Assembly: GCA_038025085.1 (NCBI GenBank)
Contig: CM076146.1
Span: forward strand, 19,539,001 to 19,603,000
Origin: Tetragonia tetragonoides
Lineage: Eukaryota; Streptophyta; Magnoliopsida; Caryophyllales; Aizoaceae
Reading direction: 5' to 3'
DNA length: 64,000 nt
Both the position numbers and the translations under genes were made by a program. The notes under the pieces are model-generated. The model saw nothing but the letters and a program-made list of their open reading frames with translations. It had not been told where the DNA came from and searched no databases. Every line of letters begins with the position of its first letter. The first letter of the stretch is position 1. Shown one piece after another: positions 29,379-60,721 of this stretch.

Positions 29379-29424
29379 ACAAAAAAAAAAATTAATAAAA
29401 AAATAAGACGTGCACAAATTGAAC

Positions 29425-31098: not shown

Positions 31099-31150
31099 GC
31101 AAAAGCACCGGCCAAAAGAAGTCAGAAACCACGAAAAAGCCCAAACCAGA

Positions 31151-37747: not shown

Positions 37748-38616
37748 CCGGCCATCACCCATGCTTTTGGTGTTCCAGCCCTTGCAAGCCTATCATGGAC
37801 CAGATAACCGACCCCGAGGGCCTCCCATGTCCCTTTGGGATGTCCCGTGCTATATGGTGTGAAAATATACACCAACGGTCCAGAGCCTCTCGGAAGCTAA
37901 AAAAAACGTGGATTATATCCTTTGATTTTCGTCTTCCAGGGGCCTGGGTGTCATTTTTGCCCAAACATCTCCTAGGGGTCTATCATGACCCTAGAGGACC
38001 CTAGGCGCTCCGGGAGGGTCATCCCTATCCCCGACCTCCGATATCACCCATGACGCCGGTATTCCGGGGGAATCCCATGTCCCCTAGGGGTCTTCCGTGC
38101 GATATGGGGCCAAAATATTAACATTCAAAACATTGCTTCCGAAGGCCCAAAACACGTGTCCTACAGCATTCCCGAGGCCCAGTTGCCGTTTTCGCCCAAA
38201 AGTTTTGCGAGGGGTCTTTCATGGCCCTAAGGGACCCTCGGTGCCCCGGGAGTGTCACCTTCATCCCCGAACTCCGATATCACCCATGTCGCCCGTATGC
38301 GGGCCCTAACATTGGCATTGCGTAAAATCGCCCTTACAGGCTTATCAGGGACACAATAACCGACCGCCCCCAGGGTCCCTTAGGGGTCTCCCGTATGATA
38401 TGGGGCGAAAATATTAACATCGAAAAGTTTGCGTTCGGAGGCCCAGAACACATTGCATACAACATTCCCCGTCCCCAGTTGCCCTTTTCGCCCAAAATTT
38501 ATTCGGGGGGTCTTTCATGGCCCTAGGGGACCCTTAGTACCCAGGGAGGGTCACCTTCATCCCCGAACTCCGAAATCACCCATGTGGCCCGTAATCAGGC
38601 CTTAACATTGCATTGC
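37748..38616 (+). repeat. GC-rich ~300-bp satellite, block 1 (about three monomers)
   Basis: Monomers run from CATTG(G)CATYGCGTAAAA through CTTACAAGCCTATCAGGGAC, CCTAGGGGTC, GTGCGATATGGGGC, AATATTAACGTCGAAA, GGAGGCCCAGAACACG, CCCCGGGAGGGTCACC and GATATCACCCATGTCGCCC. The first monomer is divergent and an internal deletion lies near 38060. The full monomer here spans about 296 bp (38310-38606). Monomers elsewhere measure 301-306 bp. Open frames inside it are not conserved between monomers. Confidence 0.9.
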
Positions 38617-38703
38617 TCTCTCCTCGCAGAATTCTTTTCTCTCTTTAAAATGCTCTCTCCTCTCTCCTCTCCACCGCGCATCCATTGATGAAGCTGTGAG
38701 TCC

Positions 38704-40089
38704 ATGGGGAAGAAAGAAAAGACAAAGCGAGCAGCAGAAAAGCAAGGCGATAATGTTGAAAACTCAGTCCCACCAGGTCCGACCAAAACTGTGAACCAAA
38801 AGCAAAGCTTGAGCATGAACTGCGAAAACCTAGGTCGGGTTGTTCGCAATTTAAGAGATGAATTGGAAGCGCCAGAGGTGTTGACACCGGAAATTCAAAC
38901 ACAAACTGTACACAAATTGGAATTACCTAGAGAGCAGATTAATACCTGGTTATCGAAAATGAAGGAGAAAGCGAGCACTCATACCTCATCTGAGAATGAA
39001 GAAGACGAACCAGAACAAACTACTCAGCAAAACAACACGGATATTGGTAAGGTCTCTGCCTGGGATAAATTCGACATAACTAAGCTTAGAAATGCCGGTT
39101 TTAAACTTGAATTTATTGAACCTGCTATGCATGATGGAATTCCAGTAGGGGAAATTAATCCTAGTGACATTGAATCTGAAATAAATTACTGGAATAAAGC
39201 TGTAGTCTGTTATGTCATGGGAGCTCGACCACCAATTACAGTATTTAGTGGTTTTCTGAGGCGAATTTGGGCAAAAAAAGGGATGAACAAAATAGCCATG
39301 ATGAAAAATGGTCTGGTGCTGGTTCGATTTGATACACTTGAACAGAGAGATGCTGTAATTCAGGAAGGAGTGTACCATTTTGACAACAAGCCTATGATAA
39401 TCAGACCTTGGTCTGAAAATGTGGATTATGATAAGGAAGAATTAACCTCAGTGCCTATTTGGGTGAAATTCCAAGGATTAAATGTGAAGTATTGGAATGC
39501 TAAGGGGTTAAGCAAAATTGCTAGCCTTGTGGGTAGGCCAATGATGGCCGATAAGAACACTGAGCTAAAAGTAGGAATTCAGTTTGCAAGGGTGTTAATT
39601 GAAGTGAAAATTGGAGATGAGTACCCTGAGAAAGTTAATTTCAAGAATGAAAAAGGGAACATTGTGGAACAGGAGGTAGAATATGATTGGAAACCAAGCA
39701 TTTGTAGCCACTGTAAGCAGCATGGGCATGGAGAAATTGACTGCAGGAGGAAGATTGCTGCTGCAGCTCCTGTGGCACAATCTGTGCCTGTGCAGAATAG
39801 GCCTCCAACACAAGCAAACCCTAGAACAATGCAATGGCAGAATGCAGGGAGAGGAAGAGGAAGAGCAGGAATTACAGGGAAGGGGCAGAGAGCAGGGAGA
39901 GGGGTGTACAGGCAACAACTCCAACAAACCCAGACACTGAACTCATTTGAAGTACTGCAAGATAAAGAAGAGCAGGAAGAGCAGAAAACTCAAGGGGAAA
40001 CAGCAGAACATGTATCAAAGGAGGATATGCTTCCTGAGATGGTGCCAACACATGGTAAGTCTCCTATCTTGACTAATAGTCATGGATAG
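38704..40089 (+). CDS. LINE1 ORF1 protein: DUF4283 and CCHC zinc knuckle
   Basis: 461 codons, fully open. The start MGKKEKTKR is chosen because LINE3 has the matching ATG at 48863. RNA-binding protein that would coat LINE RNA. In order: charged N-terminus with a probable coiled coil (40-95), an acidic stretch (98-110), the DUF4283 region (about 155-320, including GMNKIAMMKNGLVLVRF and VPIWVKFQGLNVKYW), and a CCHC knuckle CSHCKQHGHGEIDC (about 335-348). An Arg-Gly rich tract (GRGRGRAG, about 388) and a Gln/Glu-rich tail follow. It ends by overlapping ORF2 in ATGGATAG (40082-40089). No lesion seen. Confidence 0.9.
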   Translation: MGKKEKTKRAAEKQGDNVENSVPPGPTKTVNQKQSLSMNCENLGRVVRNLRDELEAPEVLTPEIQTQTVHKLELPREQINTWLSKMKEKASTHTSSENEEDEPEQTTQQNNTDIGKVSAWDKFDITKLRNAGFKLEFIEPAMHDGIPVGEINPSDIESEINYWNKAVVCYVMGARPPITVFSGFLRRIWAKKGMNKIAMMKNGLVLVRFDTLEQRDAVIQEGVYHFDNKPMIIRPWSENVDYDKEELTSVPIWVKFQGLNVKYWNAKGLSKIASLVGRPMMADKNTELKVGIQFARVLIEVKIGDEYPEKVNFKNEKGNIVEQEVEYDWKPSICSHCKQHGHGEIDCRRKIAAAAPVAQSVPVQNRPPTQANPRTMQWQNAGRGRGRAGITGKGQRAGRGVYRQQLQQTQTLNSFEVLQDKEEQEEQKTQGETAEHVSKEDMLPEMVPTHGKSPILTNSHG

Positions 40090-43000
40090 GATCCTTATAT
40101 GGAATGTGAGAGGCCTAAATGGCCCTAATAAACAGAAAGATGTGAGTTTTTTCTGCCAAAAAAATAATTGTGGCATGGTGGTTCTGTTAGAAACTAAAAT
40201 TAGGAAAATTAATTTAGCAAAATGCAAGAGAAATTTCATGCCAGAGTGGGAATCAATTAGCAACCATAATAATCATAGATTAGGTAGAATCTGGATTAGA
40301 TGGTTACCAAATTATTTCCATGTTAATGTGTTATTTTCATCTGTGCAAATGATGACTTGCAAAGTTTTTAATATAGTGAAAAAAAAAGAGTTTGTGGTGA
40401 GTTTTGTGTATGGGCTGAATGAAAAAGAGGAAAGAAAGCAACTGTGGCAGGACCTTTCTGACTATGCACTGAACTGCAACGTACCATGGATTGTTGGGGG
40501 GGACTTCAATAATGTATTAACACTTGGTAATAGGCAAGGAGGTGCCCCAGTCACATATTCTGAAGTACAGGACTTCAAGGACTGTTTAGAGGACTGTAAA
40601 CTAACAGAATTGAGCTGGACTGGGTGTGAATTTACTTGGAACAATAAGCATGAAAGGGGAGGGAGAGTTTATTCTAAAATAGATTGGGTTTTTGCCAACA
40701 GCCTTTGGATTCAGGAATTTGATCAATGTGATCTTAAATTCCATACAGAGGATGTGTCTGATCATTCCCCAATTTGTTTAACTATGCACAGAGAGCCCAC
40801 AAAAAATAGAAACAACCCCTTTAAATATTTCAACATGTGGAGCCTCCACTCTGATTTTCAAGCTAAGGTGCAGCAAGCTTGGAACATCAGAACACAAGGC
40901 ACAAAAATGTTCAGAGTGTACCAGAAACTGAAAAATGTGAGAGGAGTGCTGAAAAAGCTAAATAGGGATGATTTCAGTGGGATACTAAAGCAAGCTGAGA
41001 TAGCTAGGAATATTATGAATCAATCACAGAATACAGCAAACCAGGACCCTCTAAATGAGACCATACAGCAAGAGGAAGTGCAAGCAAGGAAGAGATATAA
41101 TGATCTGAATATGGCAGCAGAGAACTTCCTACAACAAAAGAGCAAGGCAAAATGGATTCAACTAGGGGATGGAAACACTCAATTTTTCCATGCACTTATG
41201 AAGCAAAAAAGGCAGCAGCACAGAGTACACTCCATTAAGACACAGGAAGGTACCTTGCTAGAGGAAAAGAACCAGATTGTGAAGGAATTTGTGGAATTCT
41301 ACAGAGGAATGCTAGGAGTTGCTGGAATCAGAGCCACTTCAGCAGAAAGCAGCTTCTTCTCAGCAGGACACAGACTAGACATACACCAACAGATGTCTCT
41401 GATTGCCCCTGTGACTGCTGAAGAAGTAAAGAGAGCTATGTTTGAAATTGACTATAATAAGAGCCCAGGCCCTGATGGATTTGGATCAGGGTTTTTCAAA
41501 GAAGCATGGCAAACAGTGGGGCAGGAAGTGACAGAGGCCATTATTGATTTTTTTGAGTCTTCCAAAATGCTAAAAGAAGTGAATGCAACTAACTTATGTC
41601 TTGTGCAGAAAATATCAAATCCTGAAAAGGCTTCTGATTACAGACCCATAGCCTGTTGCAACACCATCTACAAGTGCATCTCCAAGATCCTATGTGGAAG
41701 ACTGGCAAGAGTACTACCAGAACTAATTTCTGTAAACCAGGGAGCTTTTGTGGCACAAAGATCCATAGTCCACAACATTATGATTTGTCAGGATCTAATC
41801 AAGCACTAGAACAGAAAACAATCCTCCCCAAGATGCCTGATGAAGATTGACCTCAGGAAAGCCTATGACACAGTACACTGGGGTTTTATCAAGGAAATGA
41901 TGCAAGGATATGGATTCCCATTGAAATTTAGTGGGTGGATACTAGAATGTGTGCAAACAGCAAGCTTCAGCATCAACCTGAATGGGGAAGCCCATGGATA
42001 TTTCACTGCAAAGCGTGGCATTAGACAAGGAGACCCAATTTCTCCACTAATTTTTGTGCTAGTGATGGAATACCTGTCAAGAACCTTGAAGATAGCTTGC
42101 ATGGACAACAGCTTCAACTGGCACCCCATGTGCAAAGAACTTGCACTAAGTCATCTATGCTTTGAAGATGACTTGATGTGTTTCTGCAAAGCTACACCTG
42201 ACTCTGTGAATATCCTAATGGAGTGCCTGAATTACTTCTCACAAGCCACTGGTTTATGTGCAAACCAGGAAAAGTCAAGCATTTATGTGGCAGGGGTTAG
42301 TGAACAAGAGAAAAGGGTGCTGGTGAGCCTCTCAGGGTTTCAGGAGGGTACATTGCCAATGAAATACCTAGGTGTCCCTCTATCCCCATCAAAATGGAGC
42401 AAAATGGATTGTGAATGCTTGATGGATAAAATGACAAAAAGACTTCACACATGGGCTTCCAGGAACCTCTCATATGCAGGAAGGGCACAACTAATAAATT
42501 CTGTATTATTATCTATACATGTCTACTGGTCAAGCATATTTGTTATGCCTGCTGGAGTACTAAAAAGCATAGAGAAAAAATGCAGATTGTTTCTTTGGGG
42601 GGGGGGGGAACTGACCTCAAGCACAAAACTAGCCTGGTGGCTTGGGAAGTAGTATGCAGACCAAGGAGAAATGGGGGGATAAATATTAAACATTGCAAAT
42701 GGTTTAATATAGCCCTAAATGGGAAGCACATTTGGGATATAGCCACAAAAAAGGACACATTGTGGGTGAAGTGGATTAATGGAGTATATTTGAAAGGAAG
42801 TAATTTCTGGAATTATGCTCCTGTATGGGGAGCCAGCTGGTATTGGACTAAGCTCAACAAGATCAAAAGTCACTTCCAGGAGCACTATTCAACAAGAGGA
42901 GTGTGGAGGGAAACTGAAAATGGAATGTACTCAGTTGCTAGTGGATACAGAATTTTGATGGGAAATATGCCAAAATACAGACATTATGTCCTGATATGGG

Positions 43001-43482
43001 GAAGAGTTTCTGTACCTAGGCACAGCTTCTGTCTATGGTTGGCACAAATGGGGAGATTACTGACCAAAGACAGGCTACATAATATGGGCTTCCTTAATGG
43101 AGACACCATATGCTACCTGTGCAAAGAGGAGACAGAAAGTCACGACCATCTGTTTTTTAGCTGCAGTATTTCAACAGAGATAATGAAACAGGTACAGACA
43201 TGGCTGCATATTTCTGCAAGAGGAAGCACAATTCAGGGGCTACTAAACTGGATGAGTAGACAGAAATGCTCGAGATTCAGAAAGGAAGTGTATGCAGCTG
43301 GAATAGCAGCAACTGCATACTGGATTTGGAGAGCCAGAAATCTGATATGCTTTGAAAAGAGCAGTCTACCAGCAACACAGATTATGCAACAGATACAGCA
43401 AGCAATCAGAGTCAGAATCCAACAGTGCAGCAGCAATAGGAAGCTAAAAAGCAAGGATAAAAGATGGATAAGGCAACTGTGA
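40082..43482 (+). pseudogene. LINE1 ORF2: endonuclease, reverse transcriptase, zf-RVT (broken)
   Basis: About 1,133 codons. APE-type endonuclease at 1-230, with NVRGLN, LLETK, VGGDFNNV and SDHSP motifs. Reverse transcriptase about 505-745, with DYRPIACCNTIYK, KIDLRKAYDTVHW and RQGDPISPLIF. The catalytic box reads FEDD (42161-42172) where LINE3 and LINE2 have FADD. Then the zf-RVT region (about 940-1035) with C/H residues in ICYLCKEETESHDHLFF. No RNase H. Lesions are TAG at 41807-41809 (Tyr in LINE3) and a frameshift at a run of 12 G (42597-42608). Otherwise open to TGA 43480-43482. It would nick target DNA and copy LINE RNA in place. Confidence 0.92.
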
Positions 43483-44126
43483 GCCTGAATCAGGAAAATG
43501 GAAGAAATACAGAAGCACTGCACACAGGAGAGCAGCTTACAGCAGGCTGCAGCAGAGACTTCAGGAAGGAACCAGTAGCAGACTGCAGAAGATAGGCTGC
43601 AATCCAGGTAGAAGAATCCAGCAGGAAAAAAGGACAGCAGGCTCCAGGAAGGATACAGAAGCAGATTTATACAGAGAGAATCTGACGCAGAACAAATGCA
43701 AGGAATAGGCAGCAGTGCAGGAACTCAGGCAGCAGGTTTCAGCAGGTAATCAGCAACAGGTTGAAGAAGCAAGGCAGAATGAAAAAATATAACAGATCCA
43801 AGCAGAGTTGAAAAGCTAGAAGGAATTGTAATATCTCTAGCTATTTATGTTTTTGTATTTTGATGTAAGTCAGAAATAATTTTTGCAAATTGTAATGTTT
43901 ACAGAGATGGTGAGGAAGAATTTTTGCAAAGTGTAATGTTTACAGAGATGGTGAACCACTGCCTGTAGTGAGTTGCACCAGATTGAAGGGTTGTAAGGTA
44001 TTAGAGGGATGCAGCAAAAAGGAACCCTACCTAGTAGGTGGCCTTGGATCTGCATTGCCTAAGGACTGTAATCTTGTTACATTACAGAGAGCAATAATAC
44101 AATTTCTGACTTGCACCAAAAAAAAA
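43483..44126 (+). other. 3' UTR and A-tail of LINE1
   Basis: Starts with a CAG-rich stretch (CAGCAGGTTTCAGCAGG type) and ends with a block conserved in LINE3 and LINE4 (GTAGTGAGTTGCACCAGATT to CTGACTTGCACC) before the A-run. LINE2 has an unrelated 3' UTR. Confidence 0.8.
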
Positions 44127-44159
44127 AACATTGCGATCGCCCATGAATTATGCTAAGGA

Positions 44160-44862
44160 GGTCCTGTATTCAGTCCCTATATGGGTGAAATTCCCAGGAT
44201 TCGATATCAAATACTGGAATGCTACAGGTTTGAGTAAGGTATAAAGCCTCATAGGGCGCCCTATGATGGCTGATAAGAACACAGAGATGAAAGTGGGGAT
44301 TAATTTTGCTCGTGTGCTTATAGAGGTAGATATTGATTCTGAATTTTTAGATAAAGTCTACTTCAAAAAAGAAAGGGGCAATGTGGTTGAGCAATGTGTT
44401 GATTATGACTGGAAGCCCACTATATGCAAGTTCTGTAGTCAGTATGGGCATGTTGAGGAGCACTGCAGGAAGATACTAGGCACTGGGGTGTTGCCACAGA
44501 TTACAAATGTGCAGCCTATGCAACCAGTACAGCCTGTATAGCAGATAGTCAGGCCTAGGCAGCATGATCAGGGGGGACACATGAACCAGCAAAGGCAGAC
44601 AGAATGGCAGCCTGTGGGAAGAGGCGGGGGCAGGATGGGAGGAAGATTTGCTATGGGGAGAGCTAGAGCAGAAAGACAAAATGCAGACCAACAACGTCCT
44701 ATACCTGCAATCACTAATACTAAGGCTGCCCAGCAGAATGGAGGTGAGGCTACCCCTATCCACAACTCTTTTAGCATCCTTAACATGGAGGAAGCTGTGG
44801 GGATTGAGGTTCTCCAACCGGGGGGGGGGGAGAAAATCATACCTCCTGATGGGCATGGATAG
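44160..44862 (+). pseudogene. LINE2 ORF1 remnant (DUF4283 C-terminus, CCHC knuckle)
   Basis: Only the C-terminal half remains. SVPIWVKFPGF-like sequence is followed by TAA near 44242, then an open stretch 44263-44541 with the knuckle CKFCSQYGHVEEHC (about 44430-44471), a TAG near 44539, and an Arg/Gly-rich part. A run of 11 G lies at 44820-44830. The end keeps the ATGGATAG overlap with ORF2 (44855-44862). Confidence 0.82.
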
Positions 44863-47800
44863 CCTTTTGGTTTGGAATGTTAGAGGCCTAAATGGGCCTA
44901 ATAAGCAAAAGGAGGTTGCCCTCTTTTGCAAAAGTAATAAAATTGGTTTTGTAGATTTTATTGAAACCAAAATTAGGCGTGTAAACTATGAAAAAAGCAA
45001 AAAAAAGTTTGTTAGGAGAATGGGAATCATTTATCAATTTAAATGACCACCATTTGGGGAGAATATGGATCAGGTGGCTGCCTCATGAACTCTTTGTAAC
45101 TGTGATCTTCTCTTCTGCTCAATTGGTCACATGTCAGGTTGTTAACCTCAAGCTTCAGGAGAGGTTCATTGTGAGCATTGTGTATGGTTTCTATGATAAA
45201 GAAGAAAAGAAATAATTATGGCAGGACTTGAGGAATTTTGCTAGAAATTGTGGATTGCCTTGGATAATTGCAGGGTATTTTAACAATGTCTTGGGTCAGG
45301 AAAATAGAGCACGAGGTGCAGCTATGACTTATGCTGAAATTGTGGATTTTAAAGACTGTATTGATGATTGCCAGCTTACTGAGGTGAGCTGGACAGGTCA
45401 TAAGTATACATGGAACAACAGACTTGAAGATGGTGTGAGAGTCTATTCTAAAATTGACTTGATTTTTGCAAACCTTCAATGGGTGCAAAAATTTGATCAA
45501 TTTACTGTGAGATTTATTCTAGAGGGGACCTCTGATCACTCCCCTATGCATATCACTCTATCAGGTTGTACCCAGCAACAAAGGGGGGTTTTCAGATACT
45601 TCAATATGTGGAGCAGGCATCCTGATTTCTAACATGTGGTGCAACAAGCCTGGAGCATACAAACACATGGTACAATGATGTTTCAACTCTACAATAAACT
45701 CAAGGCAGTCAGGCATGCCTTGAAGAAGCTGAATAGAGAGGAATATTCTGATATTCTCTCTAGGGTTGAACAGGCTAGAAGCAAACTGCAAGCAGCTCAG
45801 TCCTGTGCTAATAGTTGCTCTAGGGATGCACAGTTACAGAGGGTAGAGGGATTAGCTAGACAACAGTTTTGTGATGTTAATTTTGTTGCTGAATCTTTCC
45901 TGCAGCAGAAGAGCAAAATGAGGTGGGTACAGCTGGGAGATGATAATACTCAATTTTTCCATGCCCTGCTGAAACAAAGAACACAGAAGAATAGGGTTTC
46001 CAGTTTGAAGAAGTCAAATGGTGAAGTCCTCATTGAAAAGGATCAGGTGTTTGCTGAACTGATTTCCTTCTATAAGGGAATGCTTGGGGTAAAGGAAGCT
46101 ACAACGGTTCCTGCACCTGATTTCATCTTTAAAGCAGGCACTGTTTTAACAACTAAACAACAAGTATAGTTGATAGCTCCAGTCAGTCACAAAGAGATAA
46201 AAGCTGCAATGTTCACAATTGACTGCAACAAGAGCCCTAGCCCTGATGGTTTTAGTAGTGGCTTCTTTAGGGATGCATGGGAGATTGTTGGTGAGGATGT
46301 ATGCCATCTTGCACAGGACTTCTTTTATTCAGGGAAAATGCTGAAGCAACTCAATGCAACCACCTTATGCTTGGTGCCTAAGGTATAAAATCCTGAATAT
46401 GCTTCTGATTTTCGTCCAATTGCATGCTGCAATACAATATATAAATGCATCTCAAAGGTGTTGTGTAACAGATTGGCTCAAGTGTTACCTGGTCTAGTGT
46501 CCTTAAATCAAGGAGCATTTGTTGCTAATAGGTCTATAGTACACAATATTATGATATGTCAGGATTTAATTAGACATTACAGAAGGAAGAATACCACAGC
46601 TAGATGTTTGATGAAGATAGACTTGAGGAAAGCCTATGATACCATTCATTGGGGTTTTTTGAGTGAGATGTTTATGGGCTATGGGTTCCCTGTACCTTTT
46701 AGTAATTGGTTGCTTACTTGTGTGCAAAGTGCAAGTTTTACTGTTAGCTTGAATGGAGAATGCAATGGTTATTTTGAGGCAAAAAGGGGGTATTAGGCAG
46801 GGGGACCCAGTCTCTCCATTGATCTTTGTTTTGTTGATGGAATTTCTCTCTCGTCTCTTGAAACTTGTTAGCCAATCTCCTGATTTCCAGCTCCATCCCA
46901 TGTGCAAAGCTGTTCAACTGAGTCATCTGTGCTTTGCAGATGATGTTATGGTGTTCTATAGACCAAACAGAAGCTCTGTGACCAAAGTGATGGAATGTTT
47001 TTCTTACTTTACACAAGTGACAGGGCTGCAAGCTAATAAGGAGAAATCACACTTACATGCTGCTGGGGTGAAGGAGTGAGTTAAGAGAGAGCTGCAACTG
47101 CTATCTGCATTCAAAGAGGGGGATTTTCCAATGAGATACTTGGGTGTTCCACTCTGCCCCTCTAAGTGGAACAAGCTGGATTGTGCTTGCTTGGTGGAAA
47201 AGATTACCAAAAGATTGCACATATGGGCTTCAATGAGTTTGTCCTATGCTGGTAGGGCACAACTCATTAATTCAGTCCTTGTGTCCCTGCATGTATACTG
47301 GGCTAGTATCTTTATCCTGCCTGTTGGTGTCATTAAGACAATTGAAAAGAAATGCAGAGAATTCTTGTGGAGGGGTGTTGAGCAGAAGAAAGGTGGTTGT
47401 CTTGTTGCATGGGACATAGTCTGTAGGCCAAAGAAACAAGGAGGCCTGAATTGCAGAAACAAGGAGGCCAAAGCTGCAAAAAAAAAGGATAATATGTGGG
47501 TACGCTGGATAAATGGAGTTTATTTAAAGAATGCAGATTTTTGGCAGTATGTCCCCAACACTGGTTGCAGCTGGGCATGGCAGAAATTGAACAAGAATAA
47601 ATCCCTTTTTCAGCAAGCCTATACTGTAGGTAACAGATGGTCCTTGACAGCAAATGGGAAGTACACAGTTCAAAGTGGATATAATTTCTTGGCAGGAGAT
47701 TTACCCAAACTGAGACATGCCAATCTCATTTGGGGGAGAGTCAATAAGCCTAGGCACAGATTCTGCCTCTAGCTAGCACAGGAAAACAGGTTGCTGACCA

Positions 47801-48200
47801 AGGATAGAGTACACAAGATGAGGTTCTTAGTAGGGAGTGCAGACTGTAGTTTTTGTCAAAAAGAGGAAGAAACACACAAGCATCTATTCTTTGAGTGCCC
47901 TAGATCTCTCTCACTGCTGAATGGAGTGAAAAGATGGTTGGGATGCAAGGCATCTGCTAGTGGTATTCATGGTATGCTCAACTGGATAAGCAGGAAGAAG
48001 GGTAGCAAATTCAGGAGAGAAGTTTATGATGCAGCAGTAGCAGCTCTGAGCTACTGAATCTGGAGAGCCAGAAATGCAATCTGTTTCAATGCAGGGAAAT
48101 TTACCGATGAAACTATTTTGCAGCAGGTGAAGTTTGATGTGCAGGCACATATTGAAGGCAGAAGAAGTCACAAGTGTACAAAAGCTGATAAAATGTTCCT
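44855..48200 (+). pseudogene. LINE2 ORF2, heavily broken
   Basis: Endonuclease pieces (SLLVWNVRGLNGPNKQKEV, DFIETKI, AGYFNNVLG where GDFNN is expected, SDHSP). RT pieces follow (46170-47079, with CFADDVMVF at about 46929-46955). Then a connector and zf-RVT (47131-48057, CSFCQKEEETHKHLFF). Breaks include stops at 45213, 45630, 46167, 46386, about 47077 and 47770, and frame changes near 45045 and 46790. TAG at 47770-47772 coincides with the codon position of a TAG in LINE3 (53181). The RT catalytic box is intact, but the gene cannot give a full protein. Confidence 0.88.
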
Positions 48201-48458
48201 TAATAGCCTGGTGTAATAGGGATTAGCTCTTACTAATATTGGTTTGTTCTATTTTTAGTTCATTGCTGTATGTAGCCTAGTTGGGTAAGGTTTGCTTTCA
48301 TGTTCAGTGGTTATGTAGGGGCTAATGTAATGGTGAACTTAAGACTTGTACAAGCTGGAAACCTTACATAGTAGGTGGGTTAGACTTGTGCTAGTCTTGT
48401 AGGTTGTCTGGTGCTTGATTTCAATTTTCAATACAATGCTAATTTTAACCAAAAAAAA

Positions 48459-48774
48459 AACATTGCGATCGCGTAAAACCGCCCTTCAAGCCTATCAGGA
48501 ACCCAAAAACTGACCCTGGGGGCCTCCCATGTCCCCTATGGGTCTCCCGTGCGATATGGGGCGAAAATATTAACGTCGAAAAGTTTGCGTCCGGAGGCCC
48601 AGAACACGTCGCCTACAGCATTCCCGGGTCCTGGTTGCCGTTTTCTTCCAAAAAAAATTCGAGGGGTCTTTCATGCCCCTAGGGGACCCTCGGTGCCCCG
48701 GGAGGGTCACCTTCATCCCCAAACTCTAACATCACCCAAGTCGCCCGTATTAGGGCCTTAACATTGCGATTGCG
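48459..48774 (+). repeat. Satellite monomer between LINE2 and LINE3
   Basis: One monomer, 301 bp from AACATTG at 48459 to AACATTG at 48760, plus the flanking TSD bases. A frame open at 48549-48761 is not conserved. Confidence 0.9.
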
Positions 48775-48862
48775 TTTTCGGCAACTTTCTCTCTATGAAA
48801 AAAATGCTCTCACCTCTCTCCTCTACACCGCCCGTCCGCCATTGACGCAGCTGTGAGTTCCA

Positions 48863-50242
48863 ATGGGGAAGAAAGATAAGGCAAAATGAGGGGGAGAAAA
48901 GCAAGATGACAATGGAGGAAACTCAGCACCACCAGGTCCGACGACAACTGTGAATCAGAGACAAAGTACAAGCATGAACCGAGACAACCTAGATCGGGTT
49001 GTGCGCAACCTTACTGATGAATTGGAGGCACCGGAGGTCATGACTCCTGAAGCACAAACAAAAACAGTCCAACAGATGGAAATTGCAAGAGAGAAGTTCA
49101 ATTCTTGGCTCTCAAAAATGAAGGAAAAGGCAAGAACACTCTCCTCGTCTGACGATGAAGATGAAGGCCTAGAACAAATCAAACAGCAAGAGACAGCAAC
49201 TGCAGGTAATACCTCAGCTTGGGATAAATTTGACATATCCAAATTAAAGAATTCTGGATTTAAATTGGATTTTGTTGCGCCAACAATGCATGAAGGAAAA
49301 CCTATAGGGGAAATTAGCTACATGGACATAGAATCTGAAATCAATTACTTGAACAAAGCTGTTGTTTGCTATATTATGGGGTCAAAACCACCAATTAAAG
49401 TGTTAAGTGGCTACTTAAGAAGAATCTGGGCAAAACGTGGGATGAACAAAATAGCCATGATGAAAAATGGATTGGTGTTGGTTAGGTTTGATTCCTTAGA
49501 GCAAAGGGATGCTGTAATTCAAGAGGGAGTCTACCATTTTGACAACAAACCCATGATAGTGAGGGCATGGTCTGAAAATGTGGATTATGCACAAGAAGAA
49601 TTGACCTCGGTGCCTATTTGGGTCAAATTTCCTGGTCTTAATGTGAAATATTGGAATGCTAAGGGACTGAGCAAGATTGCCAGCCTAGTAGGAAGGCCAA
49701 TGATGGCAAACAAAAACACAGAGCTCAAAGTAGGGATCCAATTTGCTAGAGTATTGATTGAGGTGGAAGTTGGAGCTGAATACCCTAATAAGGTACACTA
49801 CAAGAATGAAAAAGGCAATATTGTGGAACAGGAAGTGGAATATGACTGGAAGCCTATTCTTTACAACCACTGCAAGCAATATGGGCATAAGGAAGGTGAA
49901 TGCAGAAAGAAAGTAACTGCAGCTCCTATGCCACAAACACTGCCTGCACAGCCACCAGCTATGCCTCCTAGGGCTCAACACTGGCAGAATGCAGGAAGAG
50001 GGAGAGGAAGAGCTTGGAATGCAGGGAAAGGAATGAGAGCAGGTAGAGGCCAGTATAGGCAAGTTCAACAGCCTAAAACTGGCACACAGATGCAAAACAG
50101 TTTTGAAATTCTGCAAAATGAAGAAGAAACACAAGAGGCACAGACAGAAGAAACACTGGAGCCAGAACAGCAAAAGAATCAGAATGCAGTTGAGGTGCCA
50201 TTACATGGTAAGTCTCCTATCTTGACTGTTGGTCATGGATAG
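48863..50242 (+). pseudogene. LINE3 ORF1, one early nonsense codon
   Basis: Starts MGKKDKAK, then TGA (48887-48889, CGA in LINE1). After it the frame is open to TAG 50240-50242, with an internal Met at 48950 (430 codons). DUF4283 region, then a knuckle in which the first cysteine has changed: the LINE1 CSHC reads YNHC (about 49861-49872) before KQYGHKEGEC. Arg/Gly-rich tract and Gln/Glu-rich tail as in LINE1. The early stop and the lost zinc ligand both argue against full function. Confidence 0.88.
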
Positions 50243-53200
50243 GATACTAGTATGGAATGTTAGAGGCCTAAATGGCCCAAATAAACAAAGGGATGTAGCC
50301 CTTTTTTGTAAAGAAAATAAATGTGGAATGGTGGCTTTCCTAGAAACCAAAATCAGATTAGCTAACCTTGAAAAATACAAAAATAGTTTCATGCCAGGCT
50401 GGGAATCTTATAGAAATCACAATGAGCACAATTTAGGTAGAATCTGGTTAAGATGGATACCAAATTGTTTTCATGTTGATATTTTATTCTCTTATGTGCA
50501 AATGATCATATGCAAAGTGGTTAATATTGTGGAAAAAAAGGAATTTGTGGCTAGCTTTGTTTATGGCCTAAATGAAAAAGAGGAAAGGAGAACATTATGG
50601 AAAGACCTGTCAGATTTTGCAAGCAATTTCAATAAACCATGGTTTGTTGGGGGAGACTTCAATAATGTAATGCTAGCTGAAAACAGGATAGGAGGAATTC
50701 CAGTTACATTCTCTGAAATTCAGGATTTTAAAGAGTGTATTGAGCAATGTTTCCTCACTGAAATGGGTTGGTCAGGGTGCCAGTTTACATGGAATAATAG
50801 GCATGAAAGGGGTGGGAGAGTCTATTCTAAAATTGATTGGGCCCTTGCAAACAGCTTCTAGTTTCAGGAATTTGATCAATTTGATCTGAAATTCCACCCA
50901 GAGGGAGTTTCTGATCACTCTCCAATTTGCCTGGCTCTTCAGAGTGAACCAGCATAAACAAAGATCCCCTTTAAATACTCCAACATGTGGAGCCTCCACT
51001 CTGAATTCCATGCTATGGTTCAGCAAGCATGGAATTTCAGAACACAAGGCACAAAAATGTTCAGAGTGTACAGGAAACTGAAAAAGGTGAGAACAGTGCT
51101 GAAGATGTTAAACAGAAATGAATTTAGGGACATTTTAGCACAAGCAGACATTGCTAGAGCTACCATGACTCAAGCTCAGATTGATGCTAACAAGGAGCCC
51201 TTAAATGAGGAAGCACAACAGAAGGAATTACAGGCCAGGAAAAAATACAATGAGGTGAATATGGCTGCAGAGAATTTCTTACAGCAGAAAAGTAAGGAAA
51301 ATTGGGTTCAGCTGGGGGATGGAAACACACATTTCTTCCATACAGTCATGAAGCAAAGAAGACACAAGAATAGAGTGCACTCAATCAGAACACAGCAGGG
51401 GACTCTATTGGATGATCAACAGATGGTTATGGAGGAATTTGTGAGATTCTACAAAGAAATGCTGGGAGTCTCAGGGGATAGAGCAACTACAGCAGAAGAC
51501 AGTTTCTTCTCAGCAGGACACAAACTGAATATACATCAACAGATGAACCTCATTGCTCCAGTCAGTGCCACTGAGGTGAAAACAGCAATGTTTGAAATAG
51601 ATTGCAACAAAAGCCCGGGCCCTGATGGATTTGGATCAGGGTTCTTCAAGGCAGCTTGGCATATTGTAGGGCATGAAGTGACTGAGGCTATCATTGACTT
51701 CTTTGAGTCATCTAGAATGCTTAAAGAAGTTAATGCCACAAACCTATGTCTTGTGCAGAAGATACAAAACTCAGAGAAGGCATCTGATTTCAGACCCATA
51801 GCATGCTGCAATACAATATACAAGTGCGTATCCAAGATCATGTGTGGAAGACTGGCAAAAGTACTCCCAGTGCTTATTTCAGAGAACCAGGGAGCCTTTG
51901 TGGCTCAGAGATCAATTGTGAATAACATCATGATATGTCAGGACCTTATTAAGCACTACAACAGGAAACAATCATCTCCTAGATGCTTAATGAAGATAGA
52001 CCTGAGGAAAGCATATGACACAATACATTGGGGATTTGTGAAGGAAATGCTGCAAGGGTATGGTTTCCCTGCAAAATTCAGTGGATGGATAATTGAATGC
52101 ATCCAAACTGCAAGCTTTAGCATCAATCTGAATGGGGAAACACATGGATACTTTACTGCAAAACGTGGCATTAGACAGGGTGATCCAATCTCTCCACTAA
52201 TTTTTGTATTAGTTATGGAATACCTGTCTAGAACACTAAAAATAGCCTGTATGGATAGAAGCTTCAGCTGGCACCCCATGTGCAAAGACCTTGGATTGAG
52301 TCATCTCTGCTTTGCTGATGACTTAATGTGTTTCTGCAAAGCTACCCCTAAATCTGTGAGCACTATGATGAACAGCATAAACCACTTCTCACAATCCACT
52401 GGTCTATATGCAAACAAGGAAAAATCAAATATTTATGTAGCAGGGGTAAATGAACAAATGAAAAATGAACTGTTGCACATCTCAGGATTTAGAGAGGGAA
52501 CCTTGCCCATGAAATACCTGGGTGTCCCACTGTCCCCTTCCAAATGGAGCAAAATAGATTGTGAGTGTTTGGTGGATAAAATGACTAGGAAACTGCAGAT
52601 TTGGGCCTCTAGGAATCTCTCTTATGCAGGAAGGGTACAATTAATTAATTCTGTACTATTTTCCATACATGTATACTGGTCAAGCATCTTCATTATGCCT
52701 GCTGGGGTACTGAAAAGTGTGGAGCAAAAATGCAGATTTTTCTTATGGGGGACAACTGAACAGAAACACAAGACAAGCTTGGTGGCATGGGACATGGTAT
52801 GCAGACCAAGGAAAAACGGTGGACTAAATGTGAAAAATTGCAAATGGTTCAACATAGCTCTAAATGGTAAGCATATTTGGGATCTAGCCACAAAGAAAGA
52901 CACACTGTGGGTAAAATGGATCAATGGAGTATATCTGAAAGGTGTAAACCTTTGGAACTATGCTCCAGTCTGGGGTTCTAGCTGGTACTGGAACAAGCTG
53001 AAAAAGATCAAAAGCTATTTTCAGGCACAATACACTACAAGGGGTGCATGGAAGCTTGAAACTGATGGCTTATATTCTGCTCCAAGTGGCTACAGAATGT
53101 TGCAAGGAAATATGCCAAAATACAGACATGCAGATTTAATCTGGGGGAAGTTATCCATGCCTAGACAAAGCTTCTGCCTCTAGCTAGCACGAAAGGGAAG

Positions 53201-53630
53201 ATTATTAACTAAAGATAGGCTGCAGAGAATGGGCTTTTTGAATGGTGATGAGATATGCTACATGTGTAAGCTGAAACCAGAGGACCACAATCATCTGTTC
53301 TTTAACTGCAATGTGTCAACAGCAGTCCTGGATCAGCTAAGGGATTGGCTAAAAATTTCAGCAAAAGCAAAAACAATTCAGGGGATGCTCAACTGGATAA
53401 GCATGCAAAAGTGCTCGAGAATCAGGAAGGAAGTATTTGCATCAGGGCTAGCAGCAGCAGTTTATTGGGTCTGGAGATGCAGGAATACCCATTTTGCTGG
53501 TGAAGGCAGTATATCAGTATCACAGATCATGCAACAGATTCAGCAAGTTGTCAGAATCAGAATCCAACACTGCAGCAACAGCAAGAGGAAGATCTCCAGC
53601 AGGGATAAGAGATGGTTAGATGAGATATAG
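50235..53630 (+). pseudogene. LINE3 ORF2: three nonsense codons, no frameshift
   Basis: About 1,131 codons in a single frame. Endonuclease (NVRGLN, FLETK, VGGDFNNV, SDHSP), reverse transcriptase (DFRPIACCNTIYK, RQGDPISPLIF, intact FADD at 52311-52322) and zf-RVT (ICYMCKLKPEDHNHLFF). Stops are TAG 50859-50861 (Trp elsewhere), TAA 50955-50957 and TAG 53181-53183. The longest open piece, 50985-53183, spans the whole RT (732 codons). It is the least damaged polymerase in the window. TAG 53181 is followed by CTAG and is shared with LINE2. Confidence 0.92.
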
Positions 53631-54278
53631 GCAGAAGGGAGCTGGACCAGGTCATATAGCAGAGCAAACAGAAAGCCTGCATCAGAATGAAATTATCAGA
53701 TTTCATAAGCTGGTCAGCAGAGATCCCAAAAGTGATGCAAGAAGTGAGATCAAGTGCAGAACTATCAGCAGAAGGCCAGTACAGAAAGGCAGAAGCAAAA
53801 CTCATCAGGGTTTCAGCAGGGAATCAAGCAATTCTGCAAGGCATCAGAACATGTGCAGGAAAATAGGCAGCAGATTTCAGAAGGGAAGCAGAAGCAGATT
53901 GCAGAAACTAGGCTGTGAACAAGGCAGTAGGATCCAACAGGTAACCAGTAGCAGGCTGCTGGAGAAAGACACAGCAAGGAATGAAACAAAAATCAGAAGA
54001 ATTGGAAAGCTAGAAGAAGTTATAATTTCTAGCTTATTATGGTTTTGTACTTTACTGTAAGTCAGAAAAGATTTTGTGTAATTTGTCTTGTTTACAGAGA
54101 TGGTGAACCACTGTCTGTAGTGAGTTGCACCAGATTGAAGGTTTGTAAGGTAGTAAAGGGATGCAGAAAAAAGGAACCCTACCTAGTAGGTGGCCTTGGA
54201 TTTGCATTGCCTTCGGGCTATAATCTTGTTACATTACAGTGAGCAATAATAACAATTTCTGACTTGCACCAAAAAAAC
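53631..54278 (+). other. 3' UTR and tail of LINE3
   Basis: AG-rich with many CAGCAG/GCAGA repeats, then the conserved terminal block. It has a single copy of the TGTTTACAGAGATGGTG unit that LINE1 and LINE4 have duplicated. A frame open at 53620-54060 is not conserved. Confidence 0.75.
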
Positions 54279-54594
54279 AACATTGGGATCGCATAAAATC
54301 GCCCTTAAAAGCCTATCAGGGACCCAATAAACGACCCTGGGGACCTCCCATGTCCCCTAGGGGTCTCCGGTGCGATATGGGGCGAAAATATTAACGTCGA
54401 AAAGTTTGCGTTCGGAGGCCTAGAACACGTCGCCTACCGCATTCCCGGGTCCTGGTTGTCGTTTTCTTCCAAAAAAAATTGGAGGGGTCTTTCATGGCCC
54501 TGGGGGGCCCTCGGTGCCCCGGGAGGGTCACCTTGATTCCTAAACTCCGATATCACACATGTCGCCCGTATTCGAGCCCTAACATTGGCATCGC
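54279..54594 (+). repeat. Satellite monomer between LINE3 and LINE4
   Basis: One monomer of 302 bp (54279 to 54581) plus the TSD AACATTGGCATCGC of LINE4 (54581-54594). Confidence 0.9.
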
Positions 54595-55615
54595 TTCTAG
54601 GAACCTATCATATGCAGGAAGAACCCAACTCATAAATTCTGTGCTTTTCTCTATACATGTGTACTGGTCTAGCATTTTCATAATGCCTGCAGGGGTACTT
54701 AAAAGTATAGAACAAAAATGCAGATATTTCTTATGGGGATCCACTGAGGAGAAGCACAAAACCAACCTGGTGGCATGGGATATAGTATGCAGACCTAGGA
54801 AAAATGGGGGCATAAACATAAAAAATTGCAAATGGTTTAATGTGGCTCTGAATGGAAAACATATCTGGGATTTAGCCACAAAAAAGGATACTTTGTGGGT
54901 AAAATGGATAAATGGGATATATCTGAAAGGGACAAATCTCTGGGATTATGCACCAGTGTGGGGTGCCAGCTGGTACTGGACCAAACTCAACAAAATCAAG
55001 AGCTATTTCCAGGAGCATTACACAGTTAGAGGGGTCTGGAAAAGAGATGCAGATGGTTGCTATACAGCTGCAAGGGGATACAGCACTTTGGTGGGAGATA
55101 TGCCTAAGCAGAGACATGCCAACCTGATTTGGGGAAGGGTAACAATGCCAAGACACAGCTTCTGCCTATGGTTGGCTCAGCAGGGAAGATTGTTAACTAA
55201 GGACAGAATGCAGAACATGGGCTTCCTGAATGGGGATGATGTATGCAACCTGTGCAAGGCAAAACCAGAAGACCACAATCACCTTTTCTTCACATGTAAC
55301 ATGGCTGCAGATGTTTTACAACAAGTGAGAAGCTGGCTACAGATTACATCAAGAACAAACACAATTCAGAGCTTGCTGAACTGGATAAGTAGGCAGAAAT
55401 GCTCAAATTTCAGGAAGGAAGTATATGCAGCTGGGCTAGCAGCAGCTGTATACTGGCTGTGGAGAAGCAGAAATATTAAACATTTTGTGGGAAACACTCT
55501 TTCTGTGATGCAGATCATGCAGCAGATTCAGCAACCAGTGAGGATCAGAATACAACAGTGCAGCAGACTGAGAAAAATCAACAGCAAAGACAAAAAATGG
55601 GTAGAGAGAATTTAA
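54595..55615 (+). pseudogene. LINE4 ORF2 C-terminus, open but truncated
   Basis: About 338 codons downstream of the RT core. Connector region (CRYFLWGSTEEKHKTNLVAWD, then WVKWINGIYLKG) and zf-RVT (MPRHSFCLWLAQQGR, then VCNLCKAKPEDHNHLFF) with no lesion to TAA 55613-55615. The frame is also open leftwards into the satellite (from 54479), giving an accidental satellite-LINE fusion ORF of 378 codons. No catalytic domain is present. Confidence 0.88.
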
Positions 55616-56146
55616 GTGCTCTTGTACCACAGTAGACTCAGGCAAAAAGACAGGACTGCACCAGATGAGCAACCAGCAGAGGCAGCAGGTCATCAGTGCA
55701 TGTGTTAGGCATCAAGTCAGCAAACAGCAGGAGGAAGACAGCAAGGTTATGCAGCAGGTTACAGCAGGGGAATCAAAACCAGTGGGCAGAAGCTAGACTC
55801 AACAGCATGTCAGAATCAGAATACATCAACTCCTGGAAGTTTTGGTTGTAATATTTTTAGATATAAATGTTTTTGTATTTTGCTGTAAGTCAGAAATAAT
55901 TTTTGCAAATTGTAATGTTTACAGAGATGGTGGGAAACAATTTTTGCAAATTGTAATGTTTACAGAGAGGGTGAACCATTGTCTGTAGTGAGTTGCACCA
56001 GATTGAAGGGATGTAAGGTAGTAGAGGGATGTAGGAAAAAGGAACCCTACCTAGTAGGTGGCCTTGGATCTACATTGCCTAAGGACTGTAATCTTGTTAC
56101 ATTACAGAGAGCAATAATACAATTTCTGACTTGCACCAAAAAAAAA
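54595..56146 (+). mobile_element. LINE4: strongly 5'-truncated L1-type element (1.55 kb)
   Basis: Starts inside ORF2 (SRNLSYAGRTQLINSV) and ends in an A-tail. Perfect 14-bp TSD AACATTGGCATCGC at 54581-54594 and 56147-56160. Confidence 0.93.
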
Positions 56147-56350
56147 AACATTGGCATCGCGTAAAATCGCCCTCACAAGCCTATCTGGGACCTAATAACC
56201 GACCCTGGGGGCCTCCCATGTCCCCTAGGGGTCAGCCGTGCGATATGGGGCTAAAATAATAACGTCGAAAAGTTTGCTTCCGAAGGCCCAGAACACGTCG
56301 CCTACAGCTTTCTCGGGGCTTGGTTGCCATTTTCGCCCAAACTTCCCTCG
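56147..56350 (+). repeat. Partial satellite monomer, block ends in minisatellite
   Basis: AACATTGGCATCGCGTAAAA through GTTGCCATTTTCGCCC, then it breaks into GTCTATAGGCATGGG and the G-rich minisatellite. About two thirds of a monomer. Confidence 0.85.
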
Positions 56351-57440: not shown

Positions 57441-57742
57441 AATGAAAATATTAACATCAAATACTTTGCTTTCGGAGGCCCAGAACACGTGTCCAACAGC
57501 ATTCACGGTGCCCGGTTGCTTTTTTCGCCCAAAATTTTTTTGGGGGTTCTATCATGGCCCTAGGGGACCCTCGGTGCCCCGGGAAGCTCACCTTCATCTC
57601 CGAACTCCGATATCACCCATGTCGCCCTTATTCGGGCCATAACATTGGCATCGCGTAAAATCGCCCTTACAAGCCTATTAGGGTCCCAGTAACCAACCCT
57701 GGGGGCCTCCTAGGTCCCCTAGGGGTCTTCCGTGCGATATGG
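57441..57742 (+). repeat. Satellite, block with about one monomer
   Basis: Starts mid-monomer at AATATTAACATC, passes AACATTGGCATCGCGTAAAA at about 57641-57660 and ends at GTGCGATATGGG, where A3 begins. The AACATTG site here is unoccupied. Confidence 0.88.
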
Positions 57743-60721
57743 GTGTAAGGACCCGGGATTTCTACGGCCACGAAGTGCGTCCTTATAGAAAATTTGTAAG
57801 CTGGGGGTTTAGATAAGTTCAAGCAACCGACGAGTTAGAAAAGATTTTGTAAAGACTTTAATTGAATAATTACCATGATGATGACAATGCAATGACAGAG
57901 TTATGACAACAATAAGCAAGATGCATGGCGGACCGACCTTGACATTTATGACAATGAATTGACGCAAAATGACCCTAGAAGACTTATGATCGACTCGTCT
58001 AGACTTCTAGTGCATGAGAGGTAGTGGACAAATGAAGACATGAATGCAAGACTTGGACTTTTGTACAAATGCAGATGCAAAATGACGACAATGTATGCAT
58101 GACGATTATTTATGAATCCTAGCATGGAGCGTCTAATACGTACAATGCAATGCAATGCAAAGAAATGGAAAAGAAGAAAGTAAAAACCTAAGCCTATAAA
58201 TGGCCGATTATTCCCTCTCATATCAAAGGAAAAAAAAAGTCGATGAACGAAAATGAGAAAAATAGAAGAAGATGGACTATCCTATTTTTTAAATTTTTCT
58301 ACACTCAAAGAAAATGGAAAATGGGATAAATAAATAAAAAAGAAAACTTCGGCATTTTTTTTTTTTTTTTTAGATTTCATTTTTTTTTCGGCGTTTTTTT
58401 TCAACGCCATTTTTTGTTTTTTTTTTTTGCTGAATCTGAATTACATCAAAACAATAAAGAAAAAAAAAGAACAATAAAAAAAAGTGGGAGGGGGGAATTG
58501 GAGAGACCGACTCTTTTTTTTTTTGCTAAAAGGTCCTAGAAAATTCTTCATGACTTCGACGCTATATGAAAATATATCATCGGGGAACCGAGTGCTCATT
58601 GAATAGAATTCTCGCACTTTTTTTTTTGGGGCATTAGGAACTAGTTAAATATAAAAGAAAAGAGACTCCTAGCACGTAAGTACATGTTGGCACAAAGTCA
58701 CGGCATTCATGCATTCAGGCAAGCATTATAACGACGCATTTTACAGGCAAACATGTGATCAGACGGGCATTACAACGACACATGCACAACAAGTAAGCGA
58801 ATGCACGAATGTGGGTTAGAGGATTTTGGCTCCTTTGAGGTCACCACGACAAATTACAATTTCCGTTCGGCGGATGGTCGACACATCAATTGTAATTCTT
58901 TTTCACCAACAAGAGTCGATGAGTCATGAGTGAGGAAGCGTCGGTTTGCACAATTGTATATTCCTTTAGATACACGGGTTGTCTACGAGTTACGAAACAA
59001 ACTTCCTCGAGCGTTGATAAGGGTCAAAAGGTTGTGCCAAAGCACATGCAAATGATGCAAATGATTCAAAATATGGAACATGTTATTAAACAATTAAGCA
59101 AACTTGACTTTTGAGTCTAACCCTCTTAAATAAATCTCCGGTGAAGTCGCCACTCTAAGGATACGGGATTTCTACGGCCACGGAGTGCGTCCTTATAGAA
59201 AATTTGTAAGTTGGGGGTTTAGATAAGTTCCCGAAACCGTCGACTTAGAAAAGATTTTGTAAAGACTTGAAATGAATAAAAACCATGAAAGAGTTCACAA
59301 ATCTGCTATCGGCGTGTTATCGAAGGGACAAACCGAAAGGACAATCCGAAGGGACAAACCCAATAGCGCGATAAGTGAACTGATCATGTTTTTCGAAAGA
59401 CTCCCGCTCATATAGAACATATGAGTACCCAAGAATAAAGGGTTCGGGGGCAAAGGTACGAGGTGAGAAGGTGTTAGGCACCCAACTCGCCCATTTATGA
59501 CGGCCTCTACTAACTCAAGTTTGCTTAATAATCTAATGACATGATTCCCACACAAACCGGATTAACAACCTAGACTTAGACTATTAATTGGTTCACCATA
59601 AGCATCACAACATTTATTTATTAACCCTTATTTAGACATGCATTCGATTGGCAAATTGAGCATTACAACGGCTATACATGCTTGGAAGGACAATATTTAG
59701 GAAGCGATAAAAACGTTATTCTAGCATGATATCTACATTATGACAACTAGAAAATAAACAGTTAGGCAAGTAATTTAAGTTGAGCCCTCAGGAGTTAGTA
59801 CCTGAACTGTGGGTTATATTTGACAAAAATAGTAAAGATAAGATCTCAAATTTGGAAGAAAGAGGGGGAAGCTCGGTGTTAATACTGCCGAGAATAGAAT
59901 ATAATTGTTTATGGAAGAGAGAGGGAGAAGCTCAGAGTCAATACTAATGAGAATAGAGGGTGTCAACTGTAGACTGTGTGTTTTGAACTGAGGGAGGAGG
60001 GTTGTATTTATAGCCATGGAGGAGTAGGTTTGGACGGCTGAAAAATGAGCCGGGCAAGAATCCACTTCAGCTCCGCTAGCGGCCCTGGAATTTCAGTCAG
60101 CGCCACTAGCGGCCCTGGGTTTTATCCTAGGGCCGCTGACGCTGTCAGCTTGCCAGCTGGATGTTTGCCGGTCGATACCTCACTCGTTTGGGCTTAAAAT
60201 TGGATTATTCAAGATGGGTTGTAAAGCTTATTGGGGCTAGCTTCAAATAGCTTTGGTTTTAGGCCCAAATGTTTTGTGGATCTCGATATATACCCGAAAG
60301 AGTAAGGATTGATCAGTTTTGAAGTACGCATCAATGTTGGGCTCGTAACTCCATTGTTGGGAATGTGGTGTGGGCTCATGATATATCATTGGAAATCTAT
60401 TTGAATAAGGAGTCCAACAACATAAGGCTCACAAATTAACTCAACCAAATGAACTTCCAAATTAGGCTGGAAACACTGTCCACAGTATTTGGCTACATTT
60501 GTTTGACCCTTAACTTCGTTTGGCCATAACTCTTAGGTGCGGAATCGTATTTTGACACGGAAGGAAGCAATGGAAAGCTCTTAAAAGGGGCTTTTAACTT
60601 ATGTGGGAAGAAAGAGTGATCAAGGAAAAACCTAAGACCTTATTTTACCTATCAAAGCAAAAATAGCATTCAAGTTTATAAATTACTCCTTTCATCATCG
60701 GGCTTTTACGGAGAATTCTGA
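57743..60721 (-). mobile_element. Element A3: inverted, deleted A-family copy
   Basis: 57743-57878 is the inverted end of an A LTR (TGTAAGGACCCGGG...). 58200-59154 matches the A leader in reverse, ending at the inverted PBS (AAGTCGCCACT). 59155-60721 is the inverted 5' LTR, with TATA (TATTTATA) near 60005 and palindrome variants at 60072 and 60102. Gag, pro, int and the antisense genes are missing. At 60722 the LTR stops about 20 bp short of its end and abuts minisatellite. No TSD is recognisable. Confidence 0.85.
57879..58200. other. Unassigned filler inside A3
   Basis: About 320 bp rich in ATGACAATGCAATG-like words (TGACGACAATG, GCAATGCAATGC). It matches neither LTR nor leader of A1 or A2. 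No gene supported. Probably a divergent leader/gag part or captured sequence from the deletion event. Confidence 0.45.

Follow-up and report, generated by a model that had tools for sequence, protein, structure and literature searches.

Introduction

Long interspersed nuclear elements (LINEs) of the R1 clade take tandem repeats as targets, and R1 makes a 14-bp duplication. Most reported target-specific families fall into the early-branched, Tx1 and R1 groups (PMC4640811), and the Tx1 group comprises target-specific relatives within the L1 clade that carry an apurinic-type endonuclease (PMC4640811, PMC3747384). Celine of poplar has a DUF4283 domain, an endonuclease and a reverse transcriptase (RT), a poly(A) tail, target-site duplications that average 15 bp, and enrichment in one chromosomal compartment (PMC11288735). 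In green algae, Zepp and Zepp-like L1 elements insert into existing copies and thereby form clustered tandem arrays of truncated elements (PMC8226300). Here we analyze a lineage of plant L1 elements in Tetragonia tetragonoides, centered on a window of 64,000 nucleotides (positions 19,539,001-19,603,000 of contig CM076146.1, or C8) in which LINE copies have entered a ~300-bp satellite at a single point. The lineage is real, strongly site-preferring and present on many contigs of one genome.

The insertion point in the window

Queries with 40 of 120 listed plant L1 proteins identified five plus-strand LINE copies in the window and no LINE coding outside them. The copies are 64-83% identical over matched coding blocks.

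38617..44126, plus strand: LINE1, near full length, with very similar subfamily copies elsewhere in the genome
44141..48458, plus strand: LINE2, truncated in open reading frame 1 (ORF1), with many stops; 64-73% nucleotide identity to LINE1/LINE3 over matched pieces
48774..54278, plus strand: LINE3, near full length, ~76% nucleotide identity to LINE1
54595..56146, plus strand: LINE4, truncated late in ORF2
63240..64000, plus strand: LINE5, truncated in the endonuclease region and running off the window; 3' end at L010:2516, then target word

The surrounding satellite has monomers of ~300 bp, delimited by blastn, and a period of 306 by Tandem Repeats Finder (TRF). The window LINEs share the insertion point T|AACATTGGCATCGC, a single base of the monomer, and all read on the plus strand. 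Allowing up to two mismatches, this target word occurs 10 times in the window against 1.15 expected, and none of 100 shuffles reached 10. The left junctions of LINE1 to LINE4 read (C/T)T|AACATTGSSAT(C/T)GC and then LINE, and the right junctions read ...ACC-A(n)|AACATTGSSATCGC and then satellite or the next LINE. LINE1 and LINE2 form a head-to-tail tandem with the word at 44127 common to both, and single monomers part LINE2 from LINE3 and LINE3 from LINE4. The 3' end of LINE5 lies ~2.5 kb beyond the window, at L010:2516 (L-numbers denote fetched genome stretches), and is followed by AACATTGGGATCGC. Four words in the window are empty of LINE, at 38308, 57641, 62342 (first base changed) and 62648.

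38073..38603, plus strand: satellite monomers left of LINE1, including the empty word 38308-38321 (blastn with monomer)
38604..38616, plus strand: left target word of LINE1, AACATTGCATTGC, 13 nt (junction table)
44127..44140, plus strand: target word common to LINE1 (right) and LINE2 (left) (tandem junction)
48459..48472, plus strand: right target word of LINE2, running on into satellite
48473..48759, plus strand: single satellite monomer between LINE2 and LINE3 (blastn)
48760..48773, plus strand: left target word of LINE3
54279..54292, plus strand: right target word of LINE3
54293..54580, plus strand: single satellite monomer between LINE3 and LINE4 (blastn)
54581..54594, plus strand: left target word of LINE4
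56147..56160, plus strand: right target word of LINE4, same sequence as the left
56161..56344, plus strand: partial satellite monomer past LINE4 (blastn)
57445..57743, plus strand: satellite fragment with the empty word 57641-57654 (blastn and junction table)
62245..63239, plus strand: satellite array, period 306, with the empty words 62342 and 62648 (TRF and blastn)

The initial annotation of this window had put four LINE insertions at an identical satellite point, and the junction table places all of LINE1 to LINE4 at T|AACATTGGCATCGC. Six of the seven word positions that it listed match the pattern with at most two mismatches; the seventh, 38604, is the 13-nt form. Its four insertions are confirmed, and a fifth copy, from 63240, must be added to them. 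The differing truncation points, with two copies near full length, are borne out by blastn blocks. It had also held that the duplications differ in sequence and length. Their sequences do, but their lengths hardly vary: 14 bp for LINE2 to LINE4 (LINE3 with two mismatches) and 13 versus 14 for LINE1, in which one side has an indel relative to the other.

Site preference in the genome

We examined the 752.8-Mb genome (27 contigs) through two samples. The satellite-seeded sample comprised twenty 10-kb stretches (~198 kb), three adjoining the window and 17 around satellite matches, and 3' ends in it were recognized through homology to the LINE1/LINE3 3' untranslated region (UTR) without using the target word. 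All 29 of the 3' ends found in this way led into the word, intact or changed, 25 by the strict pattern and four by eye. With LINE5 included among these 29 and the four further window copies added, 33 of 33 3' ends lie at the insertion point. Thirty of them carry the word, in some cases mutated, and three carry AACAT(T/C) only (L010:8590, L011:43 and L012:4057, all inside LINE-LINE tandems). Three ends located through the word itself (L011:1328, L016:4274 and L024:5411) provide no test and stand outside this count. LINE coding occupies 85,996 bp of the satellite-seeded stretches and 0 bp of twelve 5-kb stretches (one of them all N) from the same broad chromosome zones, chosen at round-number positions. 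Coding blocks follow the strand of the satellite except for the divergent L019:699-2076 and a divergent minus-strand element in L022 (hereafter L022 minus).

Searching by the word itself returned 67 satellite|satellite, 22 satellite|other, 20 tail|satellite, 11 tail|other and six unclear|satellite junction rows. The satellite|other rows reduce to 18 candidate LINE junctions, as the L025, L026 and L028 junctions were doubled by target-like filler and L018:4757 has satellite on both sides. The tail|other rows, which include the window LINE1-LINE2 junction, are candidate LINE-LINE tandems and reduce to nine because L024:5411 and L011:3600 continue into satellite. Among the unclear rows, L024:3108 is a LINE tail and the remaining five are satellite. 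Stretches L017, L019, L022 and L027 stop short of the LINE tail. A list of 39 "C-terminal ends" was not used as a count, because several were partial matches or one copy listed twice. The satellite pattern gave no match in collections of viral contigs and genome contigs, as expected for plant DNA.

The LINE-seeded sample is a fairer test because the satellite was not used to draw it. A 188-bp 3' UTR query was scored against the genome, and the best 40 of 1399 candidates, each 100% identical to the query, were retained. Window LINE1 is among them, and the flanks of the other 39 were read. Their identical 3' UTRs indicate that the 40 copies are young, and they represent the youngest end of one subfamily. 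Twenty-nine of the 40 lie at the word. The changed words AACCTTGG, AATATTGG, AAGATTGG, AACATTTGCAACGC, AACATTGGCGGATT and AACATAGGAATCGC were scored as on target by eye. Among 28 on-target flanks from L042 to L080 (27 with the identical 3' UTR, and L079, which lies beside C1:24917816, is 90% identical and falls outside the 40), 13 match satellite by alignment and 15 are LINE-like by eye.

Several observations weigh against strict targeting. Eleven of the 40 copies lie off the word (L044, L048, L051, L052, L057, L058, L061, L070, L072, L073 and L080). For four of these, L044, L048, L057 and L061, 1 kb of upstream sequence was examined; its identity to LINE1 is 99.5-99.9%, so these copies are true members of the lineage. 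L064 and L066 are LINE 3' ends ~47 kb apart on C4 with a common flank, so a single insertion was probably duplicated together with its neighborhood, and not all 40 copies are independent. A 3' end with a different 3' UTR and without the word would escape both searches. The left word is missing in three insertions (window LINE5, whose left junction is CGAGCCTTA|CTGTGG, L010 and L022 plus), and no duplication was found in three of 21 pairs (L011 and L012 twice). The divergent L019:699-2076, a fragment cut off by satellite, is antisense to the satellite. L022 minus is likewise antisense and lies in the edge monomer of the satellite array at GG|AACAYCAAAAGCATGG rather than at the word; since it belongs to the RT clade of the lineage, not every clade member uses the word.

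We conclude that the young subfamily sampled here favors the site strongly without being confined to it. The initial annotation had proposed a target-specific plant L1. Selection of the site does extend beyond the window, in 29 of 40 copies and 33 of 33 ends, and most sampled copies lie at the word and not in unrelated sequence; with 11 of 40 copies elsewhere, "target-specific" should read "strongly target-preferring".

Two of the off-target young copies, L044 and L061, occupy an identical position in a different repeat (AACGAYCC..., then GCAAGYAAGTCAGTTCGCACATC), which is possibly a second favored site.

A model for integration

Target-primed reverse transcription, with one point of the satellite strongly preferred, is the most likely way in which this plant L1-clade lineage integrates. 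The apurinic-type endonuclease of ORF2 would nick the bottom strand at 5'-GCGATGCCAATGTT|A-3' (top strand T|AACATTGGCATCGC), and the freed ...CAATGTT 3' end would prime on the poly(A) tail of the LINE RNA, with conserved 3' UTR hairpins that may be recognized by the reverse transcriptase. Cleavage of the top strand ~14 nt downstream, after ...GGCATCGC, would produce the ~14-bp duplication. The word lies within the duplication, so that a site remains on either side of each insertion, and later copies would land beside earlier ones to give LINE-word-LINE tandems. We infer the order of the cuts, the part played by the hairpins and the reading of sequence by the endonuclease itself.

A broader proposal seems to us evenly poised. 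It holds that a flowering-plant L1 clade has an endonuclease that reads ~10 bp (T|AACATTGGCAT) and makes the second cut ~14 bp off, that the target was kept while the LINE1, LINE2 and LINE3 types diverged to ~70% RT identity, that it builds LINE-satellite arrays on many chromosomes, and that a divergent member at another point and on the other strand of the same repeat marks a shift in target choice within the lineage.

Tethering to chromatin is the alternative that fares best, although we think it rather unlikely. A protein contact would bring the LINE to satellite heterochromatin, where a loosely specific endonuclease would cut the best-exposed step, for example in the linker of a fixed nucleosome. 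Satellites can phase nucleosomes, as rice CentO does, and the poplar LINE Celine reaches centromeres with weak junction bias (PMC11288735); the 11 of 40 copies elsewhere also speak for tethering. However, a single base was used in 33 of 33 ends, which tethering alone does not predict, although phasing could, and not one of the 29 3' ends is followed by ATATT|AACG, the other TT|AA step in the monomer. The initial annotation had invoked an endonuclease or a tether selective for the satellite. The preference for the satellite word stands, with either the endonuclease or, less probably, a tether as its cause.

At some 5' junctions the LINE does not start directly at the word; scrambled copies of it (such as atcgcatcgc and aacattcg) intervene as filler. 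This target-like filler is more frequent in full-length copies, as judged by eye, and is what would be expected if the end of the complementary DNA slips on the target. It was recorded at these places:

L025:4357-4368: 5' target-like filler
L026:6761-6774: 5' target-like filler
L028:4139-4156: 5' target-like filler
L013:5981: 5' target-like filler
L060: 5' target-like filler

Independence of the insertions

The window copies are separate insertions, as the initial annotation had argued, because their truncation points differ, their ratios of nonsynonymous to synonymous substitution (dN/dS) are low and some duplications carry non-consensus variants on both sides. LINE1 and LINE3 are near full length, and LINE2, LINE4 and LINE5 are cut at three other places. 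Seven comparisons among LINE1, LINE3, LINE4 and LINE5 (LINE2 was not in the set) gave dN/dS of 0.07-0.14 with dS of 0.9-2.1, which indicates that these four diverged under protein-level selection, as active elements before landing. In the window and the wider sample together, 17 of the 21 insertions with both sides read have a duplication of 13-16 bp. These lengths were recounted by eye with at most two mismatches, because a scripted two-mismatch rule overran the duplication end. Matching non-consensus variants occur on both sides of single insertions, namely AACATTGGCTTCGC at L013 and L026, AACATTAGCATTGG at L011 and AACATTGCGATCGC in the window.

The same data bear on the possibility that one LINE entered one monomer and then multiplied with the satellite. 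The copies do sit in tandem arrays, and the L064/L066 pair, on one contig with the same flank, fits such a history. It is nonetheless very improbable as a general account, given the different 5' ends in the window, the low dN/dS at such high dS, the target variants that flank single insertions on both sides and the spread of copies over many contigs. For the window copies we rejected it on the truncation points, dN/dS and target variants, and they did not arise by segmental duplication of one insertion. Least credible of all is survival bias, in which insertion is random and only copies in the satellite persist: the satellite is presumably a harmless location and 11 of 40 young copies do lie elsewhere, but other satellite points should preserve insertions equally, yet none of the 33 ends, whether recognized by this 3' UTR or read in the window, is there, only the divergent L022 minus occupies another satellite point, and the 40 seeded copies, although young, are still on target in 29 cases.

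Lineage, endonuclease and 3' UTR

By domain architecture, the lineage is a plant L1. DUF4283 (PF14111) was found in ORF1 of LINE1 (E 2e-33) and LINE3 (E 2e-34), and Exo_endo_phos (PF03372), RVT_1 (PF00078) and zf-RVT (PF13966) were found across the ORF2 pieces of LINE1, LINE3 and LINE4. Two LINE2 pieces submitted to Pfam matched no family. ORF2 of LINE1 has an in-frame stop at 41807 and shifts frame near a G run at 42602.

38704..40089, plus strand: LINE1 ORF1, 461 amino acids, DUF4283 (ORF list; Pfam PF14111, E 2.2e-33)
40082..40810, plus strand: apurinic-type endonuclease domain of LINE1 ORF2 (Pfam PF03372, alignment, structure model)
41600..42394, plus strand: LINE1 reverse transcriptase region used for the tree (ORF list, Pfam)
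42928..43179, plus strand: LINE1 zf-RVT domain (Pfam PF13966, E 2e-18)
44026..44087, plus strand: conserved 3' UTR hairpins CCTAC-CTA-GTAGG and CTGTAAT-...-ATTACAG (alignment, consensus fold, identity peak)

The 120 best protein matches are 37-52% identical; the named ones are nearly all from plants, and several of the best are from Caryophyllales. In an RT tree of 70 rows (20 of our own and 50 protein hits, with no Tx1 or R1 rows), our rows form one clade with a Shimodaira-Hasegawa approximate likelihood-ratio support of 99. This clade includes LINE2, L017 and L022 minus. The last (L022:3-3690, with L029) has an RT ~51% identical to that of LINE3. It ends in ...TTACC-A(n) and has AACAYCAAAAGCATGG on both sides in a ~16-bp duplication; one copy was found.

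The LINE1 endonuclease residues N8, E37, Y110, D141, N143, D201, D227 and H228, which we take to be the catalytic positions of an apurinic-type endonuclease, are invariant or nearly so in the alignment. The model of this domain has a mean predicted local distance difference test score of 94.8, and its best match in the PDB is the human LINE-1 endonuclease (8sp7, E 2e-16); the TRAS1 endonuclease ranks as the 26th structural match, behind human LINE-1.

The alignment of 30 3' ends shows poly(A) tails, which mostly follow ...CACC. Identity is 0.82-0.94 over the terminal 200-300 nt of the 3' UTR, against 0.48-0.83 for nearly all of the remainder. Hairpins appear in the consensus fold of the 30-sequence alignment, with a covariation term of -1.27 and seven of 39 pairs changed on both sides; because this term is small, the hairpins rest more on conservation than on covariation. 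A conserved 3' stem-loop in one plant L1 lineage has been taken as stringent RNA recognition (PMC3747384).

Relation to described elements

Celine resembles the present lineage in its DUF4283 ORF1, its ORF2 with endonuclease and RT, its poly(A) tail and its enrichment in one compartment. In contrast, its junctions have only an AAGA/AATA-type bias, with a unique duplication for each copy (PMC11288735), and here one satellite word recurs in 29 of 40 sampled copies. The present pattern is unusual, since the general expectation for plant L1 elements is insertion almost anywhere. L1 elements with a loose target would be expected to share no long flank, whereas the word is common to these 29 satellite-blind copies and absent at 11.

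The Tx1 group shares with this lineage its place in the L1 clade, its apurinic-type endonuclease and its target-specific insertion (PMC4640811, PMC3747384); our RT tree was built without Tx1 rows, and the named protein relatives are nearly all from plants. The R1 clade (R1, TRAS and SART) likewise combines an apurinic-type endonuclease with target-specific insertion (PMC4640811). Unlike that clade, our elements have the domain make-up of plant L1 and an endonuclease that TRAS1 matches only at the 26th structural rank, and no R1-clade rows stood in the tree. They also differ from Zepp in that the primary target is the satellite word, and LINE-LINE tandems follow from duplication of the word at each insertion.

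Our search of the literature on plant LINEs, satellites and targeting, from which subscription papers were mostly absent, listed no title on an L1 of flowering plants that uses a site of this kind. Single-base preference in a satellite by such an L1 would, if true, be an independent gain of specificity. As on-target, off-target and shifted-target relatives occur in one genome, the endonuclease residues that govern sequence choice become testable. The system could also show how LINEs and satellites jointly shape repeat-rich DNA. An L1-type enzyme that naturally prefers a long site is, in addition, of interest for inserting DNA at chosen targets.

Other repeats in the window

The left edge of the satellite array (window 37429-37990) has conserved counterparts in L019, L021 (twice), L025 and L028, and in L014 it is contained in a more extended match. 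The arrays thus seem to belong to a larger unit that is itself dispersed. A TGGGACA-rich minisatellite stands beside the satellite twice, with similar flanks, at window 56365-57035 and 60721-61127. Finally, window positions 15375-22809 and 25147-33064 are large direct copies that are ~83-86% identical.

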